DNA from: Butyriboletus loyo
Lineage: Eukaryota > Basidiomycota > Agaricomycetes > Boletales > Boletaceae
Assembly (NCBI GenBank): GCA_038093515.1
Contig: JBBPSI010000287.1
Coordinates: 1 to 28,253, forward strand
DNA: 28,253 bases
Reading direction: 5' to 3'
The position numbers and the translations under genes were made by a program. Of this stretch, positions 3,866-17,386 are shown piece after piece. The stretch's first letter is position 1; each line of letters begins with the position of its first letter. A model generated the notes under the pieces. It ran no database searches and was not told the DNA's origin. It saw only the letters and a program-made list of their open reading frames with translations.

Positions 3866-6800
3866 TCACAGACCACGAGCCTCAAGACGGCTCCTGAATA
3901 TCTTTTGGAACCCAGCAACGTGGTCGAAGTCCATGAGGGTGTCGTGTTGTCCTGGGACATCCATGTACGTTGGCTCTCCACGGCTAAACTCGGCCCATGG
4001 CTTCAGCTGCTCGTTCAACCAATCTTCCTTGGATCCACGAAGCGGATTGGCGTGGAACACGTCAACAACGGCTAAGCGGGAACAAGCAATGAGCAACGCC
4101 TTCGACGATATGACTGTGGTAAAACTTACAAACTGAACTGCCTGGGTTGTATTCCTTGCCACACTCGATAAGCGATCCAGCAATGTCGACCCAATGGTCA
4201 AGTTTCTCAGGCGTGAGCTGTAGCTCAACAAGACGTTCGGGAGGAGACAACTCCCAGACGGCATCCAATTGCTCCTTGCGAGACAGAGGACGTAATGATG
4301 GTGTGAGGTCGTTCGCATCTTGCTTCGACACGAGACCCAGGAAGTAGGACAGGTTGAGCATCCCACCGGTCCAATCAATCTCATGCATACGGTCAGCGAT
4401 ATGCGGGGGAATGTTGATGAGACCGGTAAATTTGACTTCGTCTCCCATCGCTTCCAGGCGCTTGGCAACCTCGAAAGCAACAACACCACCATACGAGTAA
4501 CCGGCGATGGCATAAGGACCGTGAGGCTGAGTCCGTTTGACGGCCGCAGCGTAGGAGGAAACCATTTCGTCCATAGATGTAAAGAATGGATGTCCGGGTT
4601 CGAAACCGCGAGCGCGGAACGCATAGAAGGGCCGCTCGTTGTGGAAGTACTTGGCGAGGTTCACGAAGATGAGGACCTCTCCAACACAGGGATGAACCAT
4701 GAAAATGGGAGTCTTATTACCGGTAAGGTTAAGAGGCACGATGGGATCGTACTCTTCTGCGACGACACTCTTAGATTTCAAGGCGTCGATGTAGTTGGCG
4801 AGACTCGAGATGACAGGGTGCTTGAGGATCTGGGTGGTCGGAATGTCGGCGATGTCAAACGTAAATTCGCCCTCTCTCTTGAGGCGAATGACATCAATCG
4901 AGGTACCACCGAGTTCAAAGAAGTTGTTCGCAGCAGAAACATCCGCGACGTCCAGGTTAAAGGTGTCAGCGTAGATACGTGCGAGGGTCTTCTCGGTCTC
5001 GCTCGCAGGAGTGACAAAGGTGGCTCCACGAGACTCGCGGAGCAACTTCTCGGCACGAGCGATGTGCTTGGCGAACTCACCCTGGTTGAACCGGGCGAGC
5101 AAACGAGAACGCGATAGCTTTCCGAGCGTAGTCTTCTCCATCTGGTCGAGGGGGATAGGAACGATGTGCCGAGGAGGGAGCCCGATCACCTTGACGAAAA
5201 TATCGCGTAACGCATGGTGAACGGCAGACAACTTAGTGGATGCATCCTCGCCGTGGAGGTCAAAAGTAGGGGAGAAGAAGATGACGAAACATTCGGTTTG
5301 TTGTCCAGGAGCACGGTAAGGTGCAGCGGCAAGGAAAGAATGGGTGACACCCTCCACCGTCTGGAGGTAAGTCTCGAGCTCAGGAATACTGTAGGGTACA
5401 CCGTGAACAATGACGGTTTCCTTGATGCGTCCACTAAGTCTCAGGGAACCATCTTGGATGATACCAATGTCACCCGTGCGGTACCAACCACCCTCGGCGA
5501 ACGATGACTCGGTGGCCTGGACGTTGTTATAGTACCGAACGAATACCATGGGCCCACGAATTTGAAGTTCTCCACTCTCACCGTCGGGACGAACTGTGAC
5601 GCCATCCTCAGGACTGACGATGCGCATCTCGCATCCTGGGTTTGGAACGCCGAGTTCTAGGAACTCAAACTTGGGTTCAGAAACGGAGACGTCGGAGGGA
5701 TTGTAGATGCATCCAGCACTGCAGAGAACTTGTTGGCGTGATACCCCTTCTTAGAATACCTCAGTACTTACCACGTCTCGGTCATACCGAAACCAGGAGA
5801 GATGACAAAGGATAACTTTGAAGAGTCTCGGGTGAGGTTCTTGAGCGTAGCGACGAAGGCCTTGGCAGTCTTCGAGACGACCGCCTCACCACCGCTGTTT
5901 ATGCGCCCGATAGAAGACAAGTCAAAGCTTCCGAATAGGTCTGTTCTCTTTTCCAGATCCCGGGTAAGCTTGGCGAGAAGGAAGTTGGGAGCAAAGGTGA
6001 GATTGATAGACTTGGTTTCAATCAAACGAAGGAAGCGCAGGGGATCGGACAAAATGACGGATGCGTGTACGTGGATCTGAGATGCGCCGTACAACAATGG
6101 AGTAACGTGCATCTCGAGTGAGCCAGCGACGTGGTCGAAACCAACCCCTGTTGATTAACGTCAAATTGGAAGAGCAACTAGAACTTATGAAGAACTCACA
6201 GTTTAGGATGTTGGACTCGGAAGTCAGTCCATAGGCGACGCCCTTGGAAGAGCAAGCAGCCAAGATAGTTCGGTGAGTGTGGACGACCACTTTCGAGAAC
6301 CCAGATGATCCCGAAGTCAAGAAGAAAATAGCTTCATCGTCAGGCTGAACAGTTCGAGCGACCCAGTCAGCCGACACGTTATAACCCTCTGCCGCAATCC
6401 TGAGCTCGGAGAGGATGTGGATCTCCAGCCCTGGAATAGATTTTACTTGATCTGCACCAGCCTCGCTAGTGAGCCAGGTAGCCGAGCGAGTCACATTCGT
6501 GACATGGGCGATATGAGCTTCCTTGTGAGCCTGTTGTGCGCTGAGAGCAGGCTGCAGGCACGGAACGTAACCGGAAAGGAGACAAGCCCAGACAGCAGCC
6601 ATGTTGTCCTCATGCTCTGTCAAGTAAACAAGAATGATAGACCCAACAGGCTTGTTCAAATCCAGGAGTGCACGGGCGAGGTTGCGCACGCTCTGGTTGA
6701 AAGTACTAAAAGTCTGGATGTGCATGGAAGGATCATGGGGGGAGGAAGTCACGAAACCGAACTCGTGCGATGGGTAGCACTCAGTGGCATATGACAAGAC

Positions 6801-6908
6801 ATCGATGAGAGTAGACGGTACGTGAGAAGGCTGGTCCAGGAGAAGGGAGGCCTTGAGATTCGAGATCACGTCAAGAGTGCCTTCAGCAGGGGTCGCAACT
6901 GGAGCCAT
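3866..6908 (-). CDS. Atromentin synthetase-like quinone synthetase (A-T-TE, NRPS-like)
   Basis: A single-module enzyme of 959 residues. In characterised relatives (AtrA, GreA, InvA, NPS3) this class activates an aromatic alpha-keto acid such as 4-hydroxyphenylpyruvate and joins two units into a terphenylquinone. Exons: 6908-6200, 6147-5772, 5718-4130, 4071-3866; three GT-AG introns, phases consistent. Adenylation domain: TSGSSGFSK (198-206), GFDHVAG (239-245), GFGMTETC (355-362), YRTGD (D445), GRIKE, and the A10 lysine K562. Carrier domain: FFELGGTSID with phosphopantetheine serine S635. Thioesterase: GYSYGG with nucleophile S770, and GQHDT with H934. There is no condensation domain and no signal peptide; the length matches atromentin synthetases. 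Substrate (4-hydroxyphenyl-, phenyl- or indolepyruvate) cannot be read reliably. No clustered aminotransferase is present. The start ATG at 6908 is the first in frame and gives a family-like N-terminus (MAPVATP). Confidence 0.9.
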
Positions 6909-8461
6909 GGGTCGGGGGGTCTACTCGAGTAACAATGAAAAAGGTATGCACATGAGCATAAAGAAAGGGATTACCAGACGGACTAAGTTTAAAGCTTGAA
7001 CGTTGAACGTCCAAAAACGCAATTACGAAGTTGCAGTGTCTATGCACATGCATGTGCGTATGTAGGAGAGGGGAAATGACATTATCGAGGAAAAGCAAGC
7101 AGCCAAGATGCATCGAGGGTGAAACGGCCAAAAAACCATATTCTCAGAAAGCATCCGGAATGGTTGTAAAGGTCGGAGCGGTAGAGTTGAGAGAATGAAA
7201 CAAGACGAATTGAATCGCTCTAAAAAGCCTACAAAACCGTGATCACAGAGAGTCCGGACCAAGAATAGGATGATCCAACGTCTACACATCTGTACCGTAC
7301 CTCGAGGAGCAGTGGGGCAGCACGAAGTCGAGAAACGCAGGGGCAACTTGAAAGCACGAAGTGTTCAAGTCCATCGTCATTCAAACGCAACGTGTTCGAC
7401 AGTGAGAAAACAACAACTCGAAATGAAACAGTGAAGTGCAGCAGCTCTAGTAAGGAACACCAACCCTACATTCAAGAACGAACCACGGCACCTAAAACAG
7501 CAAGCACCATGGGGCGAGCTCCATCTGAGCCTCCACATCGCTCTGGGACTTGCAGTACACCCCCGCAGAGTAAAACCAGGCAAACAATAGCGTGAGTCCA
7601 GAATGAGTTGGAGGGCAAATAAAGAAAAGTGGATAATCGCTGTCGTCCGGTGCTGGTTTAGGGCAGGTCGCAGGTGTCGAGATCTGTTCCGTCAAAGTAC
7701 GGAGCCGAAGTTGGCAGGGGTATTCCACTCGCTCACCGACTCCGAAAAGCAAAGTTTCAGATCTAGCAGCGTAAACAGGCTCTTTCTATCTACCATCGCC
7801 AGTCGCTCGACATCCGAAAATTACGACATTCCTGCAGCGATATGAAGGGCCTCATCAGAGAGGTTCTCGTCACCCTTCGCAGTCTCACATGCAGACAGAA
7901 ACGCAAGCCCATCGCGGGGACGTCACAACGAAATGATGTCGGATAATTTCAAGCGGTGTTTATTGGCGAGACAGAGTCCACTGTCAGTCGGATTTGCGTC
8001 ATCCTGAGTTCCGTGGCATGCAAAATGAACTCAGTCCGATTCCTTCAACTGGGATAATACATCATTAACCGTTCGGGCCAAAGAGGACTCCAGGTTGTGC
8101 GTCATGTCTTTGTCAGTTGTCAGACACTGGCGTCAGCCAAAAATGTGGTTGAATCCGTTATATCTGTCGATCAGTGAAGTGCTGTAACCAATCCAGAAAA
8201 AAGGGAAATGGTTGAATGTATATATTAAATCCGAGAAGTAGCCATCTTTGTTCGACCGTCAGAACGTGTTTTGATTATATGGTAAATGGACGCATCGAGA
8301 GAAAATAGAATCAGGAATTTTGGACGGTTACCAACGTAAATACTGAAAAGAATGCACGATATAGTATATGACGATGGCATGTCGAGACGGTCAGAGACGT
8401 GGAACAAGAGAACAAGAAAAAAATAGGAGGGGGGAGGGAACATGTACGCAATTCATCGCCT
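6909..8461. other. Intergenic region between the synthetase start and the transcription factor stop
   Basis: 1.55 kb with only short, unrelated ORFs. It must contain the synthetase promoter and 5' leader (right of 6908) and the 3' UTR of the transcription factor gene (left of 8462). I saw no tRNA-like structure, transposon end or conserved protein. In particular there is no aminotransferase or alcohol dehydrogenase of the kind that often sits beside atromentin synthetase genes. Confidence 0.6.
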
Positions 8462-11400
8462 CTACATCGCGAGCTGGATTTCTGGCGTCTGGAACGCCCC
8501 ATACCCAGGAAAAATGCCTGGAATCCCAGCGCCGTTCGCTCGTCCGTCGCTCAAGCTACTCATCAGCGGCACATCAGGCCAAGAGAACCTACATGGTATA
8601 GGTCGAGTTTAACTTGAGACAGGAAAGGAATGAAAAAAAAACGTACCCAGGCATCATCATATTACCCCACCACACTTCATTCAGCGCATGCATCGTTGCT
8701 AGGGTCCCGGAATCCGCCAACACGTCCGCCATGGTCACGTCGTTGCTCTCAAACAAGTTCACAATCCCAGATCCGCCACTATCGGGCACCGTAGCATGAT
8801 GGCCGTACGATAAGGCTATATCGGGCTGGGGCGCCGTGCTCGTCAGACCAGACGACACGGGTGTTTCGACCGCGTTCGGCAGCAGGCCAAGCTTCATCTG
8901 TAGCGCATCGCTGTCCTGGCACTGCTCAGACCCCGATTGCGCTTGCATTCCCGCATGCGACACATGCCCGCCCGAAGAAGAACTACGTGACCCCCCATAG
9001 CTCTGCGTTTGCGATGGGAGCGCGGGCTGACTGGCTGCAGGACGTGGCTGTGGACGCCCAGAGACAATACTCCCGCCCCTGCGATGTTTCGTGAGCAGAC
9101 CTGCAAGGAACCGCGCGTACAGACGTGGAGTGTGGCGTTCGTCGATCGCCACCTCTTGCAACGTCGTGATCAGTCGCCCGATCGAGTCGAATATCTCGTC
9201 TTCCATTTCTCGCGTGAGAATACGGACAAACTCGGGTCGAAGAAGCTGGTTTTCAAGAATTCAGATCCAGGGCTGACCGTACGAGCAAGTAGAGGGGAAC
9301 ATTACCTTGAGCAAAAAAGCAGAAGCAAACGAAGCAAAGATAAAGTGACCTGGAATATGGGATTTAGTAACGGACGATCATATATTAGAGTCAAAGAAGA
9401 ACTGAGCCTTACCGTCTGGGGACGAGCGCATGAGACCACTTGGTGCAAGCACATTGATCATATGCTTGATAACAGTCGTTGCAGCTTCAAAGCACTGTAG
9501 CAAAATATACTCGAACCCAGATTATGCCTCCGAGTGAACGAGGTAGAGTACCTTGGTAAGGAACACGTCGTCACTCGCTTCAATGCCCCGCTGGAAAGCG
9601 TGTTGGAATCCAAAAGAATACATGACGAGCCGCGAGTAGCTGACGAGGCTATGTTGCACTCAACAAAAACACAAAGTCGAGACACGAACATTGAGAACTA
9701 CTCACAATGGCAGTAATGTACAACGGAATCGACATCCGGAATCTGCAACAAAAACCTTCAGCGGTGGAACGCGAAGCATCAGAAAACGTGACAGACCGTT
9801 GGGGTCTGACTCCGATTTGAAGCGTAACTTCCACTCCTCGAAATAAGCTGTCAGTTGCGCATCATGCCGGAGCGTCACAGAGAGGAAATTTAGTGACTTT
9901 CCATGATATGGTGATGTAAGCACGCGAACCCGAACCCAAAATGAAAACTCCACCTTGTTGAGTCCCGTCGGAGAATTCGGATCAGAAAATATCTCCTCAT
10001 GAAAACCACCAACGATGCGCAGTAGTTGAGTGTAGGCGCAGAGATGAATGTCATACTAACGTCCCGATCAAATGGCTTAGCACCCTCGGAACGAAACAAC
10101 GAAACAGCCTACCTTGTCCCTGTACTGCGATTGTCTGTACCAGTTTGCCGAGTTCCTCGTGATATAGTCTACCTTGATCGTGCTCGGTTTTCCAAACTGC
10201 GTCGCGGTCGAGTGATCCAGGTTGAAACAGATCATCCAGACCCGTGTCCGATTGAGCATCTCACGCTCCTGTCGCTCCGTTTGTGGCTGTATCATCGACA
10301 CTTGATGGAGATTCAAATCCGTGGCAATCCTGCAACAAAAATGAAAATACAAGAATAGTCAGCAACGGAGGAATGGATTACGGAGAACCCAATGCCTCAC
10401 CTGACTGCAAGCCCCGTATATAACCAACTCCGGTCCTCCTCCCATCGTCGAGCGGGAACGGCATAGATACTCATCAGGATGTACGCCTGGCACAATTCGA
10501 CAGACTTCCATCCGTCAATAAGCGCATTGGCTGCAGAGTGCTTCGCAAAATGCATCGCCACCGGGTAGATCTCGGATTTCTCGCCATAATATCTGGATGA
10601 GATCGCGCAGACTGTTTTCGAGTCTCAGGCATGGTTGTGATCAAGGAAGAAGACGACCGGTACGCACTGACGGTGAAAAGGAACGGACAGCGCTGGAATA
10701 TCGACGTCGCGTTATGAAGCTTCGGGTCTAGCAAGCCAATGAAGGGCTGGATAGGAGGGAGACGTCAAGCCTTTGGTCGCCTTTCATGAACATATTACGT
10801 ACATTGATCTGGTTCCAAAAACTGCCCCGTGATATCAGCCTCGCGCTCCCAAGGAAACAGAAGTAAAGGAAGAGAGACACACATGTCGAATAGCTTTTCT
10901 ACGTCTTCCGACGTCACCAATCCATGCAACAAGATATCCGGGGGACTGTTTCTCTCGATCAAGTGCTTTCGTATGTTGAGATCGTTCGCTGGACCTAATT
11001 CAAGATTCCATCAATACTATCGTCCCGACCACGACGACGACAGATAACATACCTGGCCTGAAATACTCCTTGTTCGCGACACCCTTGAAAGAGAGGCACG
11101 CATCAACAAGAACGACAAAAAACTAACGACAAAAGTCGATACATACCACGTTATCATCATCTTCCTCGGGTTTGACAGCAGCGCCACTCGAACCTGTAGC
11201 ACTCCCCGGGCGGACGCTACTCCTTCCCTTCCCCTTCCCTCTCTCATCCTCTTTATCCAAAGAGAGATTCGCGAGTAAGCCAATCGGGACAGTCACATCG
11301 GGTAGCACACTGCGTGCTTTTTCGGCATCCTCTTCTTCCGTAGTCCCCTCCTCTGCATCCTCCACCAGGTCGTCAGATTCATCCATGGGGTAGCCGGTAG

Positions 11401-14400
11401 AGGAATGGATAACGCCACTTGCGCCACGGCTAGCACCCGGGACGGAGGACGATATTTCGCCAGAACGACGCATCTCTCGAATGATCTCCACCCTCGCCGC
11501 GGTCGCCTGGCCAGGCTGTTGCGTACTGCTCTGGAGACGGTCCATCCAATCAACCACTCGGATATTATCCCTGTCAGAGGGTGAGGTTGCCATCTTGAAT
11601 TGGTCGATGGAGAGCGGCGTCGCCATGTACGGATTATGGAGCTGAAGTGAAAACGGTTGGTCAAGGTGTGGTGCGGCAATGTCGACGACGAACGTCAACT
11701 CACCTGTTTCAAAAGGGATCCGATTATTTGATCCTTGTGGCGGATCTGCGCAAGCAGGTATTCTCGTTTACTAACACAAGGGGGTGGTGATGAGTATGTG
11801 GATGACAATGTTTCGGAAGAGGCAGTAGAGGAATCAGAATCATGCGAGCGGTGTGAATCGCATGATGAAGAACGATTCATCGCTGCCGACATGGAACGGC
11901 AAAAAAAGAAGTAGAAGGTGCAAGTAGACGGACAACAAAAAAAGTTTAGAAGAGCAACGAGAAAAAATATGAGAAGAAGAACGCGCACAACAAGCTGGCT
12001 TAAGTAGCTCCATTGCAATGCGAGCGCCAATGAATATAGCTTTTGGTCGTGCAGTGCTTTTTCCGGTAAGAAAGGATGCGAGAGAGAAAACGGACGACCT
12101 ATTCATCCGTGGGGCCGAATGATCCTGCAGGCTGCCATCATGCCAATCGCAAATTCGACAAACGAGCAAAGCAACCGGCTACCAGTCCTGGAGCATGTCA
12201 TGCGCCGATGTCCAAAAATGGAAAGATGACGGCAATGCAGTGCTTGGGGACGGCGCCAAAAAGTCGGAAGAAAATGGTTAAAGCATCGCAATGGACTTAC
12301 TTTGGGGTAGTTCTAGGTTTCTTTGCCTCGACGATGCAGGGATGACCTGAAGTGGTACAACGCTTACATGAGCTTGCACCCTCCGGAAAGTCGCATTTCA
12401 TCTATTATCATGAACCGGAGATGGACCAAAAGCCAAACCACAGTTGATGACAGCGAAAATGAAGTGACGCGCGTGCCAATCGTGCCCGACCCGGATGATT
12501 TGAGGCCAAGAACATCATATTCCAGTGACAAATTTGACACGTAGTCCAATTCAAGTTGTTCGGTTCAAGGAATAGTAGGGTTTCAGCCAGGGTATGACGG
12601 GGTCCAAGGGAATGATGAGTAAATTGAGCACGTGGATGGCCAGGAGGACGCAGAAATCCATTCGGAGGAAACGCCCACCGGTACCGTGGGTTCCGGACGA
12701 GAAACATGGAGCGCGGAGTTGGTAGATGGTGGGAATACCAGGACAATTTCAATGGGCGTAACATGTGAAGAAGTGATTTGATCGACAAAAGTAGAATAAA
12801 TGTTTTGGACACGAGGTCCCGGAGGTTCAAGAATCGAAATTGCAGTTGCGTCCGTTTCAAAGTCAGACCATGACGCAAAGATCCACATTGGTTGGCGGGG
12901 ACCACGAACATGAGACATGTCAGAGGCGCAAACACGCGGATCCGGAGACATCGTACGCCGTAGAAACACAAGTGTCCGCAATGGTGAGTTGGCCGTAAAG
13001 CGATGAAGAGAGAGTTTGGTAAGCGAGTTAGTAGACAGGCAGGAGGCAAGGGACGGACCTTGAGCCGTTTGCAGTAACTGCATGCTCCAATCCTGAATGA
13101 TCGTGACGTTGGAGCACAGCGATGGAGACGAAGGGGGGTGCAGCAGTACAACGGGTGGGTAGCATCACCGAGCCGAAGACAGGATAGGGTGTCCCCGAGA
13201 CCATACGCGATGCCGAAACCATCGTGGGTGGCCGGCAAGTTCGCGATTCAAGGTGTGGTCGTTCGGGAAAGCGCATCCGTAATGTTAGCAGCACGGAACA
13301 ATCATCGCCGGAGTCGGGTTGTGGTACGAGATGGATGTCGATAGACGAGATAGAGCCGGTAGAGACGGAAGCACACCGCCAATCAATGCGTTCATGCACA
13401 GCGACATCGCATTGGTCGACGTGGGGTGGGCAGTCCGAGTTGTGACGTAGTGGTCGGGCGCAAATAGCCGGCGGGGCAGTGCCACAAAAATGCCGAAGGC
13501 CAGGTTACCGGGTACGCAGCATAACCGGATAACCAACGAGAGAAAAGTCGAAGTTCACGAACGACACAAAAAATGGATGCAGGTGAATACACGAAGAAAT
13601 GAATGCATGCCTCACCGGAAAATAACAGTGCATGGCAGTCGCAAGCACATATGTTTTACGACGATGCATAATGAAAGATATGTTGTCGTCCGGTTCGGTT
13701 GTAGCGGCGGTAGCGCAGTCGGGATGATCGTACGGACATTTGAGAGAAGAATGAAGATGAAAAACCCAAAGGAGGCACTCTCGTCAGCATCACATTATAC
13801 CGCAGGGGAAGAGAAAGCGACAATGAAATAAGAGGAAGACGCACTTCCGTCCACCAGGTGCCGGAGTAACATGAACCGCCCCTCCTCCAGTTCCTCCGAG
13901 CTCACCCGCCCCTGCACTCATGCTCGTACTCGCACCAGCACCCCCAGCCCAATCAGGTACCCACTCAATGACTTCATCATCGTCACTGTCATCATCGCTC
14001 TCGACCAGATTCCCTCGAGAGGCCCCAATCCCGATCCCTGTGTACGTAGCTGGCCGCGGACGTTTCGGTGCACGAGGTCGCTTAGTCGAGGTTCGTACAG
14101 GTGGTACACGGTTCGTAGGCACAGTGGTTCGCACTTGTCCTTGAAGTTCGACGGCTGGTTGTGGCCGTGCCTGAAATTCCGAGCGACCTTGAAATCCTGG
14201 TCCAGGTGTCGCATGTAAAGCAGAGACAGCCTTGTATTGGTATTGTTCCTGTGAGGGGGCGCGTATGTGTGCGTGTACCTGCGCTGGCGGCTGTGCGTGT
14301 TGTTGTGCAGACTCATAGCGAGGATGTGACGGCTGAACCGTGTAACCCGTTTGCACCTGATAGCCTGAACGTGGTCCGAAACCCGAATCTTGGAACACGC

Positions 14401-17386
14401 CATCCATGGGGACACCAGACGATCCCCCTCGTGGCTGCGGCGGCGGCCCAGTTACTGTCGACAAGGAGGTCGAATGTGCGTGGCTAGCGCCTCGCCGTTG
14501 CCCACGTTCATATTCACCTGTCCCTTCACCCTGCCGTGGTACCCATTCTTGTCTCCTTTCTTGCACAAGTAATTCGCCCCTCGACTCTTCTTCGACCGCG
14601 TGTTGAGTTCCATAGACGCGCGACGTTGACGTCCTTACCAGCTCCGATGTTCCTGATAACATTTCCGACACCCGCGAAGACTCCGACCCCATCATTCCTG
14701 AAGATACCCCACTCGCCTGCCCACTTCCATTGTCCTCGTCAAGCGATGACGTTGTATTTGCCCTCCGATGGCTTCCATATGATCCTGCCGGGCCTGTATG
14801 CACCAAAAGACACGTGTCAGCGCTTGTTGAAGCAGAAGTGTGAAAGGCGTGATAATATGATGGATATGAGCCATATTCTGAGGTAGAAGACGGAAACGCA
14901 GAGAGACGGAGAGCGCGAAGGCGAGTCACGTGCAAGCGGAGAGCCAGACGACGACGGAGCACGTCCGGCGATCGTACATCAAGATCGCGTATAAATCAAT
15001 GAAAAAAGAAAAAAGGATATGTCAAAACAAAGAAGGGGGAAAGAAAGAAAACAGAAAACACGGAATGAGGTGCCTTTAAACCGCTCCGGAGGGGAGAGCA
15101 CAAATATGGTCGATGCGACCACCGACCACCACATTCAAAGCTAGAAGGTCAGAAGTGATGACAGTAAATGACGCATGACCGAAAAGCCAAGGTCCCACCA
15201 TGTCGGCAGGTTCATGTCCAGGCCAGTCACAGTCATGGAAACTTCCGCATGCCACACTATGACTGGTGCTCTATGAACACCCCGGATCGCCCGTACCAGG
15301 GTTATCTCGGAGTGTGGAACTACAGGCAGAGAAATCACATGGATTGCACTTTGCACTTTGCACAGCGCCAAGACGCCGAATGCCCTGACTAGCGCATAGA
15401 CCTTTCAGGGAGAGAGACAAGTCCTCAGGATGGCAGACACGAAAACTAAGCCAAAACCGGACCGGAGCACGATTGCAGTGACAAAATGGGAAAACACGAG
15501 GCTCAATCGCCGAAACCCATGGCAAGACCACCCAGGAATGTTCAGCGACCAAAAGTCAACAGTGCCAGGGTAAAATACCCAAGCCCGTTAAGAAATGGCA
15601 TCATTTGCAAAGTGGAAGATGCAAGATAGAAAGGGAAATTTAGAGGGTGTGAGAAACTGTGACTCACCAGTATCGCTCGCGGGAGTATTTGAGTGTGTTG
15701 GAGGTGTGATCCTTGAAAATGAGGATTGTGGAGATGAGTGAGAGAGTGTGTGTGTGTGCGGAATGGCGGCAGAGGGCGGAGGATAGATATCATGCTGTTC
15801 AAGGAGGAACAATATTAGTCTCCGAGCATGAAAAATGCAGCGATGCGAAGAGCGACAGAGGAAAATATCAAAGCAAGTCCCCATGAATATGAGCACCCCA
15901 GAACCAACTAGTTTCACAATCGGTTGTCGACAGGTCCCAATGTAAACGAGGAAGACGGAATAGGAAGCAGAGGTAGATATTACAGAAAGGTTGGACGCAC
16001 AAGCGATGATAGGCTGTGACTGGGTTGAGCATTGAAATACATTCTCGGAGGCTCATTGACATGCTCCACGGTTATGGCTACGTCCGCATCCGATCCTGCT
16101 GAAGCAGAGTAATACTGTTCCGCGGTGTGAAGGTAGGGGTCATTTTGAGCGACAACAAAGTGCGATGGCGAAGCAAAAGGAGGATTGACCTGTGTTTGAA
16201 TATGGTATTCTACAGGCGCGCTGCGTGTGTCGGAGGTGTTCGGCTGGTCTTGTGATGTAGGAAACTTGGTGGCATGTTCTCGAGACTGACTCTGCGTGCG
16301 GTGAGATTGCAATTGTGATGGTTGTGGTGGAGGATTAGAATAAGGCGAAGGTAAGGAAAGTAGTTCTTGCAAACGCTGGCTCGCAAGCCCTAGTGGAGGT
16401 GAATGGTGCTCTTCAGTCTAAAATATGCGTGAGACGAAGTGAAGATAGGTTATATGCGTTGGAGAGAGATTTCTGACCAGATTTTCTGCTCTCCTTTGTT
16501 CGTATTGCTCTGTCCGGCCTTGTCCTTGCCCAGGGGGATCAGTTTGTACCTGGCCTTGTGGTATCGTAGGGTCATTATGGCGCGGACCTCTTTGTCGACG
16601 CGAAATAGGTACAATCTGGCGATGTTGCACGGTTTGATGCTGCGACTAGGAAGGTGGCTGAGGATGTTATTGATCAGCCTCGCTGAGGGAACTCACCCGA
16701 TGTAAGCCAAAGCCAGATGCACTTTGGAGAAACTGAAGGGCATCGCCACCGGTTGAAGCGGAACCCGAATTGCCACCTGGGGCGGCATGAAATGCAGAAT
16801 CGGGTGCGGTGAGTGAATTGTCCACGGCAGAAAAAGACAGGTCGAAGGGTGCATCCCATCTGCTGGGATGGTGATAGTCGGGAATGGTGCTTGCGTGTGC
16901 CGGGTCGTAAAAGGACAATGCGGAGACGATCATTGATGAAGGCGGGGATGAAGCAGAGGAGGATGGGCCAGATAAAAATCGATTGGTGTTGGCAGGAGCG
17001 GAAGTAGATGAGGGGTAGAACGAAGTCGCGGGAGCTTGGTGAGAGTGGTCGCTTAAGGAAGGTTGTATGAAATGGGACTCGGAGTGTGGGAGGATGGGGT
17101 GGGAGGTAAGGCGGGAACGATGATGGGAAGAGAGGGAGGTGGAGGGAAGGGCAGCAGAAGTCTGATGTAGGTTGGACTGAGTCGTCCTGGGTGCTACAAG
17201 GGAAAGGGTAAGCGAGAGAAAGAAGAGAGGAGGGATGATCGCGCGGGATCTATCTGCATGTGACAGGAAATGCAACAAAGGACGGGAGAAGACTGATCGA
17301 GGGGGACATACGGAGAGCTTACCTCCGGTGCTGTTCAGACTGGATGAGAATTCCGCATCTTTGTTGGGTGTCCGGCGGCTTTCCAT
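8462..17386 (-). CDS. Large Zn2Cys6 fungal transcription factor with fungal-specific (MHR) domain, 24 exons
   Basis: Nuclear DNA-binding regulator, 1619 residues. Exons: 17386-17323, 17193-16697, 16645-16478, 16417-16001, 15794-15668, 14877-13845, 13092-13059, 12401-12301, 11770-11704, 11641-11147, 11083-11053, 10994-10883, 10821-10803, 10746-10668, 10611-10401, 10329-10113, 10055-9954, 9896-9797, 9742-9706, 9648-9552, 9494-9413, 9349-9306, 9245-8647, 8588-8462; every junction keeps phase. Residues 1-768 are Ser/Pro/Gln-rich with an acidic patch (ESDDDSDDDE). The zinc cluster has Cys 773, 776, 783, 792, 795 and 802 (C-x2-C-x6-C-x8-C-x2-C-x6-C). A coiled-coil linker follows (NKREYLLAQIRHKD, 814-827). 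The regulatory domain spans about 1002-1400, with ICAISSRYYGEK, SRLVMYSFGFQ and DGHFIFASFASAF. Exons 7, 11, 13 and 19 are only 34, 31, 19 and 37 nt. Introns 4-8 are 206-790 nt; later ones are mostly 50-70 nt. The target genes are unknown. The extended N-terminus (exons 1-5) is less certain than the rest, and an in-frame ATG at 17476 is an alternative start. Confidence 0.88.
12402..13058 (-). other. Intron 7 of the Zn2Cys6 gene: 657 nt with no internal AG
   Basis: Donor AAG|GTCCGT at 13058, acceptor ATAATAG ending at 12402. It separates CSYCKRLK from MKCDFPEG inside the zinc cluster. Reading the plus strand, there is not one CT (minus-strand AG) from 12404 to 13058, so the first AG after the donor is the acceptor. 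A TACTAAC box occupies 13033-13027 with its branch adenosine at 13028, about 30 nt from the donor and about 626 nt from the acceptor. Confidence 0.88.
13093..13844 (-). other. Intron 6 of the Zn2Cys6 gene: 752 nt, AG-free for its last 516 nt
   Basis: Donor GGAA|GTGCGT at 13844, acceptor TTCAG ending at 13093; it joins GGRK to IGACSYC in phase 2. Before the acceptor there are only three AGs: two in GAGAG (13782-13778), only a few nt after a CTGAC branch-like box (A at 13784), and one GAG at 13612-13611. The remaining 516 nt hold none. Confidence 0.82.

Follow-up and report, generated by a model that had tools for sequence, protein, structure and literature searches.

A 657-nt AG-free intron with a putative donor-proximal branch point in a zinc-cluster gene of the fungus Butyriboletus loyo

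Distant branch points followed by AG exclusion zones have been described in animals. Gooding et al. 2006 (PMC1431707) list a human intron of 1132 nt, in PTP-sigma, of which 1126 nt form an AG exclusion zone, a 590-nt zone at exon 11 of Fugu PTB, where the branch point is predicted at -566, and a human exon with the motif TACTAAC at -214 within a 220-nt zone; AGs up to 12–15 nt away from a branch point may be skipped. In vertebrate OGDH intron 4a, as described in PMC7969005, mapped branch points lie 25–41 nt from the 5' splice site, and a GAG present in the zone of Mola mola is not used as acceptor. For yeast, a paper on Fyv6 (PMC11651659) mentions, without data, a typical depletion of AGs in the interval from branch point to 3' splice site, and uses reporters spanning 9–50 nt, in which second-step factors matter from 21 nt. 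Searches of the open-access PMC library found no report of a fungal AG exclusion zone of the length described below.

Here, two neighbouring introns of a fungal gene, i1 and i2, are described which, judged from their motifs and AG content, fit the animal class of distant branch points with AG exclusion zones. Like the animal exons in PMC1431707, i2 lacks AG all the way from a consensus branch-point motif to its acceptor. By contrast to them, the host is a fungus with introns of ca. 60 nt and the introns stand in tandem around a 34-nt exon; moreover, the animal exons are often alternatively spliced, whereas alternative splicing of i1 and i2 is hypothetical. OGDH intron 4a resembles i1 and i2 in its donor-proximal branch point, putative in our case, and in its long zone without a favoured AG, and the unused GAG of Mola mola parallels a GAG of i1 that must likewise be skipped; however, its zone spans ca. 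280 nt, and neither the large pyrimidine tracts nor the mutually exclusive exons described in PMC7969005 were found here. The yeast depletion (PMC11651659) is likewise fungal, but the distance in i2 is 626 nt. The arrangement as such is known from animals, and what looks new is the pairing of two such introns in tandem in a fungus whose introns measure ca. 60 nt. An earlier sequence-only reading of this DNA had implied that a zone filling a whole intron exceeds known cases, which the human and Fugu zones listed in PMC1431707 contradict.

The gene and its introns

The window analyzed, 28,253 nt long, is one complete contig of a 30.3-Mb genome assembled in 420 contigs. Its minus strand carries a gene for a Zn2Cys6 transcription factor (Pfam Zn_clus, E 1.8e-6) with named relatives in the mushroom-forming fungi Lentinula, Vararia, Termitomyces, Pleurotus, Agrocybe and Pisolithus. 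Ten introns, i1 to i10, were placed by continuity of the zinc cluster and by the proteins of relatives, the model starting at i1 (Table 1). After intron removal, the exons join without a stop to read ...TPAPGGRKIGACSYCKRLKMKCDFPEGASSCKRCTTSGHPCIVEAKKPRTTPNKREYLLAQIRHKDQIIGSLLKQLHNPY.... At the i2 junction, 13059 joined to 12401 reads GACSYCKRLK followed by MKCDFPEGASSCKRC, and relatives' proteins are the same across it, as in P0012 (GACTHCKKLKMKCDFP); the ends of i2 are predictions based on this continuity and on these relatives. The joined frame and the Pfam match also bear out the location of i2 inside a zinc-cluster coding region, as the sequence-only reading had claimed. Across i1, the phase-2 join of 13845 to 13092 gives GGRKIGACSYC, so that an extra exon considered within i1 (13778–13615) is not needed.

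Table 1. Features of the zinc-cluster gene in the window
Feature	Position	Strand	Description
Intron i1	13093..13844	-	752 nt, GTGCGT...TCATTCAG
Proposed i1 branch point, CTGAC	13783..13787	-	branch A 13784, intron position 61; motif only
34-nt exon separating i1 and i2	13059..13092	-	codes for the first CxxC of the zinc cluster
Intron i2	12402..13058	-	657 nt, GTCCGT...GATAATAG, phase 0, AG-free from donor to acceptor; predicted ends
Proposed i2 branch point, TACTAAC	13027..13033	-	branch A 13028, intron position 31; motif only
Exon with second half of the Zn2Cys6 cluster	12301..12401	-	starts ATGAAATGC (MKC)
Intron i3	11771..12300	-	530 nt, 13 internal AGs, CTGAT 63 nt from acceptor
Introns i4–i10 and intervening exons	10330..11703	-	each intron 56–71 nt

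From an ATG onward, the 3' end of i3 (11701–11900, minus strand) and the following exon form one open frame (MSAAMNRSSS...CVSKREYLLAQIRH). A similar M...SKREYLL start without zinc cluster is found in 16 of 60 protein records of relatives, five of them annotated NCBI proteins, and is possibly an alternative start or a product of gene calling across the i3 acceptor.

Elsewhere in the window, WD40 repeats are encoded at the contig start (22–510, plus strand). Enzyme pieces with AMP-binding, phosphopantetheine and thioesterase domains lie at 4062–6920 (minus strand), a layout probably matching small NRPS-like synthetases, for example those that make atromentin. The contig end (27554–28252, minus strand) encodes a chromodomain and a Tf2-1-like SH3 domain, a combination presumably matching the integrase end of Gypsy-type retroelements. 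The window contained no Rfam family at gathering score and no tRNA.

Protein searches with the translations of two open frames of i2 retrieved two records from other contigs and nothing else. One, P0061 (7,120-base contig), overlaps i2 and equals the window translation over 166 amino acids; the other, P0060 (10,021-base contig), is a near-identical variant overlapping i2, with a one-frame shift in mid-intron and three amino-acid changes. Their occurrence on other contigs speaks against an assembly artefact. Reasoning from the window codons, each of the three replacements in P0060 is reachable by one AG-free substitution, an observation of little weight given so few changes. The sequence of i2 is single-copy in this genome, and no relatives of it were found among viral and prokaryote contigs. 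At the i2 position, a paralogous Zn2Cys6 gene located on a different contig (L024) carries an intron of 48 nt, AG-free between GTAG and CTAG; since this intron is ordinary, the giant size of i2 is a property of the gene copy in the window and not of the position. A more distant match, L023, crosses the i2 position without a stop.

Absence of AG from i2

On the plus strand, a CT at 12402 is followed by the next one at 13059, a gap of 657 nt, which means that the minus strand is AG-free between the AG that ends the upstream exon (13060–13059) and the acceptor AG (12403–12402). The AG-free state of i2 proposed in the sequence-only reading was thereby confirmed, with 0 AGs in 655 nt versus 24.2 expected from the intron's own composition, slightly fewer than the 25–40 that reading had anticipated. 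In 20,000 mononucleotide shuffles of i2 the mean AG count was 24.3 and the minimum 10. In a genome sample of 22 stretches from elsewhere than the window, read on both strands and totalling 213,333 bp (0.7% of the 30.3 Mb), no AG-free run exceeded 204 nt, a length reached twice, and extrapolation of the exponential tail of this sample gives ca. 1e-6 runs of at least 657 nt genome-wide.

The bias is directed at AG itself and not at purines or GA-rich motifs, since on the minus strand of i2 the dinucleotides GA (26 observed versus 24.2 expected) and CT (58 versus 61.9) match expectation. The latter count also upholds the strand specificity asserted earlier. AC (46 versus 37.8) likewise stays close to expectation, GG (32 versus 25) and AA (35 versus 23.4) show no deficit, and the exception is TA, which is low (19 versus 38.4), TA being also the rarest dinucleotide of the genome sample. 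Folding of i2 is not unusual (z +1.15; 17 of 20 shuffles fold equally well or better), and RNA structure therefore need not span the distance from branch point to acceptor.

The other introns of the gene served as controls. Intron i3, similar to i2 in length and pyrimidine content (63%), has a CTGAT near its acceptor and tolerates its 13 AGs; if the AG frequency of i3, taken upstream of the AG-free end of that intron, is applied to 626 nt, 19.4 AGs are predicted (Poisson P 4e-9). Intron i3 also has, at its position 23, a TTAAC that coexists with its AGs, indicating that a donor-proximal motif alone does not impose exclusion. In the seven short introns (i4–i10), the nearest YTRAY lies 27–48 nt from the donor and 13–29 nt from the acceptor, and no AG separates it from the acceptor in six of them, the exception being i9 with one GAG. 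From the counts and these in-gene controls we infer that AGs have been purged from i2 by purifying selection. Of the RNA-level selection claimed in the sequence-only reading, the strand- and AG-specific exclusion stands as observed, and selection is the probable interpretation of the statistics and controls.

Intron i1 has three internal AGs versus 26.9 expected. Its last 516 nt before the acceptor are AG-free, the second longest AG-free run of the window, 518, falls in this intron, and its first 60 nt contain no AG where about two are expected. The two introns are not mutual copies, as they show no similarity to each other, and i2 has neither a tandem repeat nor internal similarity. Further AG-free runs of the minus strand were observed in the upstream part of the gene at 14879–15075 (196 nt), 15503–15658 (155 nt) and 16891–17036 (145 nt), the first of which ends in a plausible acceptor, CTACCTCAG.

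Candidate branch points and a proposed mechanism

Intron i2 contains one perfect TACTAAC, whose branch A leaves 626 nt to the intron end, with 0 AG over that span up to the acceptor. Upstream of this A there are only 30 nt, AG-free, a span short for judging AG frequency there. Two other YTRAY motifs, both CTGAC, occur at positions 139 and 196, and none is found in the final 461 nt of i2, where AG-free simulations average 4.7 (P about 0.01). The probability that the donor side is AG-free by chance is 0.32–0.38 for a branch at 31, 0.006–0.014 for a branch at 139 and 0.0007–0.002 for one at 196. Since the spacing between motif and donor matches that of the short introns, the donor half of i2 resembles an ordinary fungal intron whose acceptor lies ca. 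600 nt away. Pyrimidines amount to 77% after TACTAAC versus 61% across i2, with no strong tract specific to the branch point. Scanned across the genome sample, CTRAC (84 sites) and the control CARTC (113 sites) are followed by an AG at similar distances, so that motif and control are not separated and the branch-point consensus of this genome is not independently established.

In i1, the CTGAC at position 61 is followed by 691 nt to the intron end. AGs downstream of it occur at +3 and +5, touching the motif, as a GAG at +172 (13612), and as the acceptor CAG at +690. An alternative candidate is a CTAAC 192 nt from the acceptor, and the placement is less clear than in i2.

The reading we favour, with a probability of roughly 80%, is that i2 combines a donor-proximal, "distant" branch point with a linear search ending at the first usable AG, together with purifying selection against AGs; all three components are deduced from sequence features. 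The branch would form at the TACTAAC, ca. 31 nt from the donor, the usual spacing of the gene's short introns, and the 3' splice site would lie 626 nt beyond it, as compared to the usual 13–29 nt. After lariat formation, the spliceosome would scan downstream from the branch point and use the first usable AG. A new AG arising within these 626 nt would serve as acceptor and wreck the frame or the sequence of the zinc cluster; because any new AG would have this effect, selection would purge AGs, and the result would be an exclusion zone filling the whole intron. Intron i1, which precedes the 34-nt exon, would be built alike, with its CTGAC at 61, the long distance to its end and one tolerated GAG. 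A stwintron or another nested or recursive intron was also considered and is ruled out for i2, which has no internal acceptor AG.

Alternative readings and implications

A regulated variant of the favoured mechanism was considered, in which the long second step slows splicing of i1 and i2, some products retain i2 or skip the 34-nt exon, and the arrangement persists because it regulates the factor. The pair of introns would then act as a slow splicing gate deciding inclusion of the zinc cluster and hence DNA binding, a tentative proposal that we regard as rather unlikely. Products of either event would miss a complete zinc cluster, and 13845 joined to 12401, as in exon skipping, hits a stop immediately (AAA TGA, by hand); frequent alternative splicing of the animal exons with distant branch points (PMC1431707) points the same way. 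The motif MKC.F was found in nine of 60 protein records scanned, four of which (P0001, P0018, P0019 and P0020) start at its methionine, yet are continuous over i3 and i4. An ORF caller applied to RNA retaining i2 would yield such records, since TGA TAA TAG at the end of i2 precede the ATG and a transcript keeping i2 would be called from the MKC ATG. These starts may be a weak, indirect sign that i2 often stays unspliced. Against this, four others of the nine (P0012, P0014, P0017 and P0023) read straight through the i2 junction with the whole cluster; the remaining one, P0022 from Lentinula, has an odd stretch preceding the motif.

That i2 is instead a coding segment of a retained-intron product, its lack of AG stemming from codon or stop-codon constraints, is very improbable. 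The frame of the upstream exon does remain open through 216 codons of i2, ending in the three stops at the acceptor, and the chance of such an open frame in AG-free simulations is 0.006 for frame 0 and 0.018 for any frame. However, a coding frame does not forbid AG in all three frames, the open frame has no Pfam match, and protein searches with the i2 frames returned only P0060 and the window's own translation. The mid-intron frameshift and three changes of P0060, deduced from its protein record, argue against a conserved protein, the frameshift implying that the long frame is not kept. A 279-codon frame (12408–13247, minus strand) runs open through the 34-nt exon and i2 to the same stops. Least credible of all is that composition, chance or a repeat left a pyrimidine-rich or low-complexity stretch without AG, since, although the transcribed strands of both i1 and i2 are pyrimidine-rich (61–62%), some 24 AGs were expected, no shuffle fell below 10, only ca. 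1e-6 such runs are expected per genome, i1 next to it has a second gap of 518 nt, i3 at similar pyrimidine content holds 13 AGs, and no repeat, i1–i2 similarity or second copy was found.

If the favoured reading of a distant branch point under AG exclusion is correct, the spliceosome of a fungus with a short-intron genome would, by linear search, ligate exons some 626–690 nt past the branch point, a distance far greater than the 9–50 nt of the yeast reporters in PMC11651659; apparently it would need neither a strong pyrimidine tract nor an unusual structure for this. Intron i2 would lend itself to measuring how selection acts on the choice of 3' splice site, as a natural target that is easily scored because ca. 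13% of single substitutions (251 of 1965) create an AG, and the contrast of i1 and i2 with i3 provides a ready minigene system. Should the less probable gate also operate, it would bring to fungi a regulation by distant branch points hitherto described in animals.
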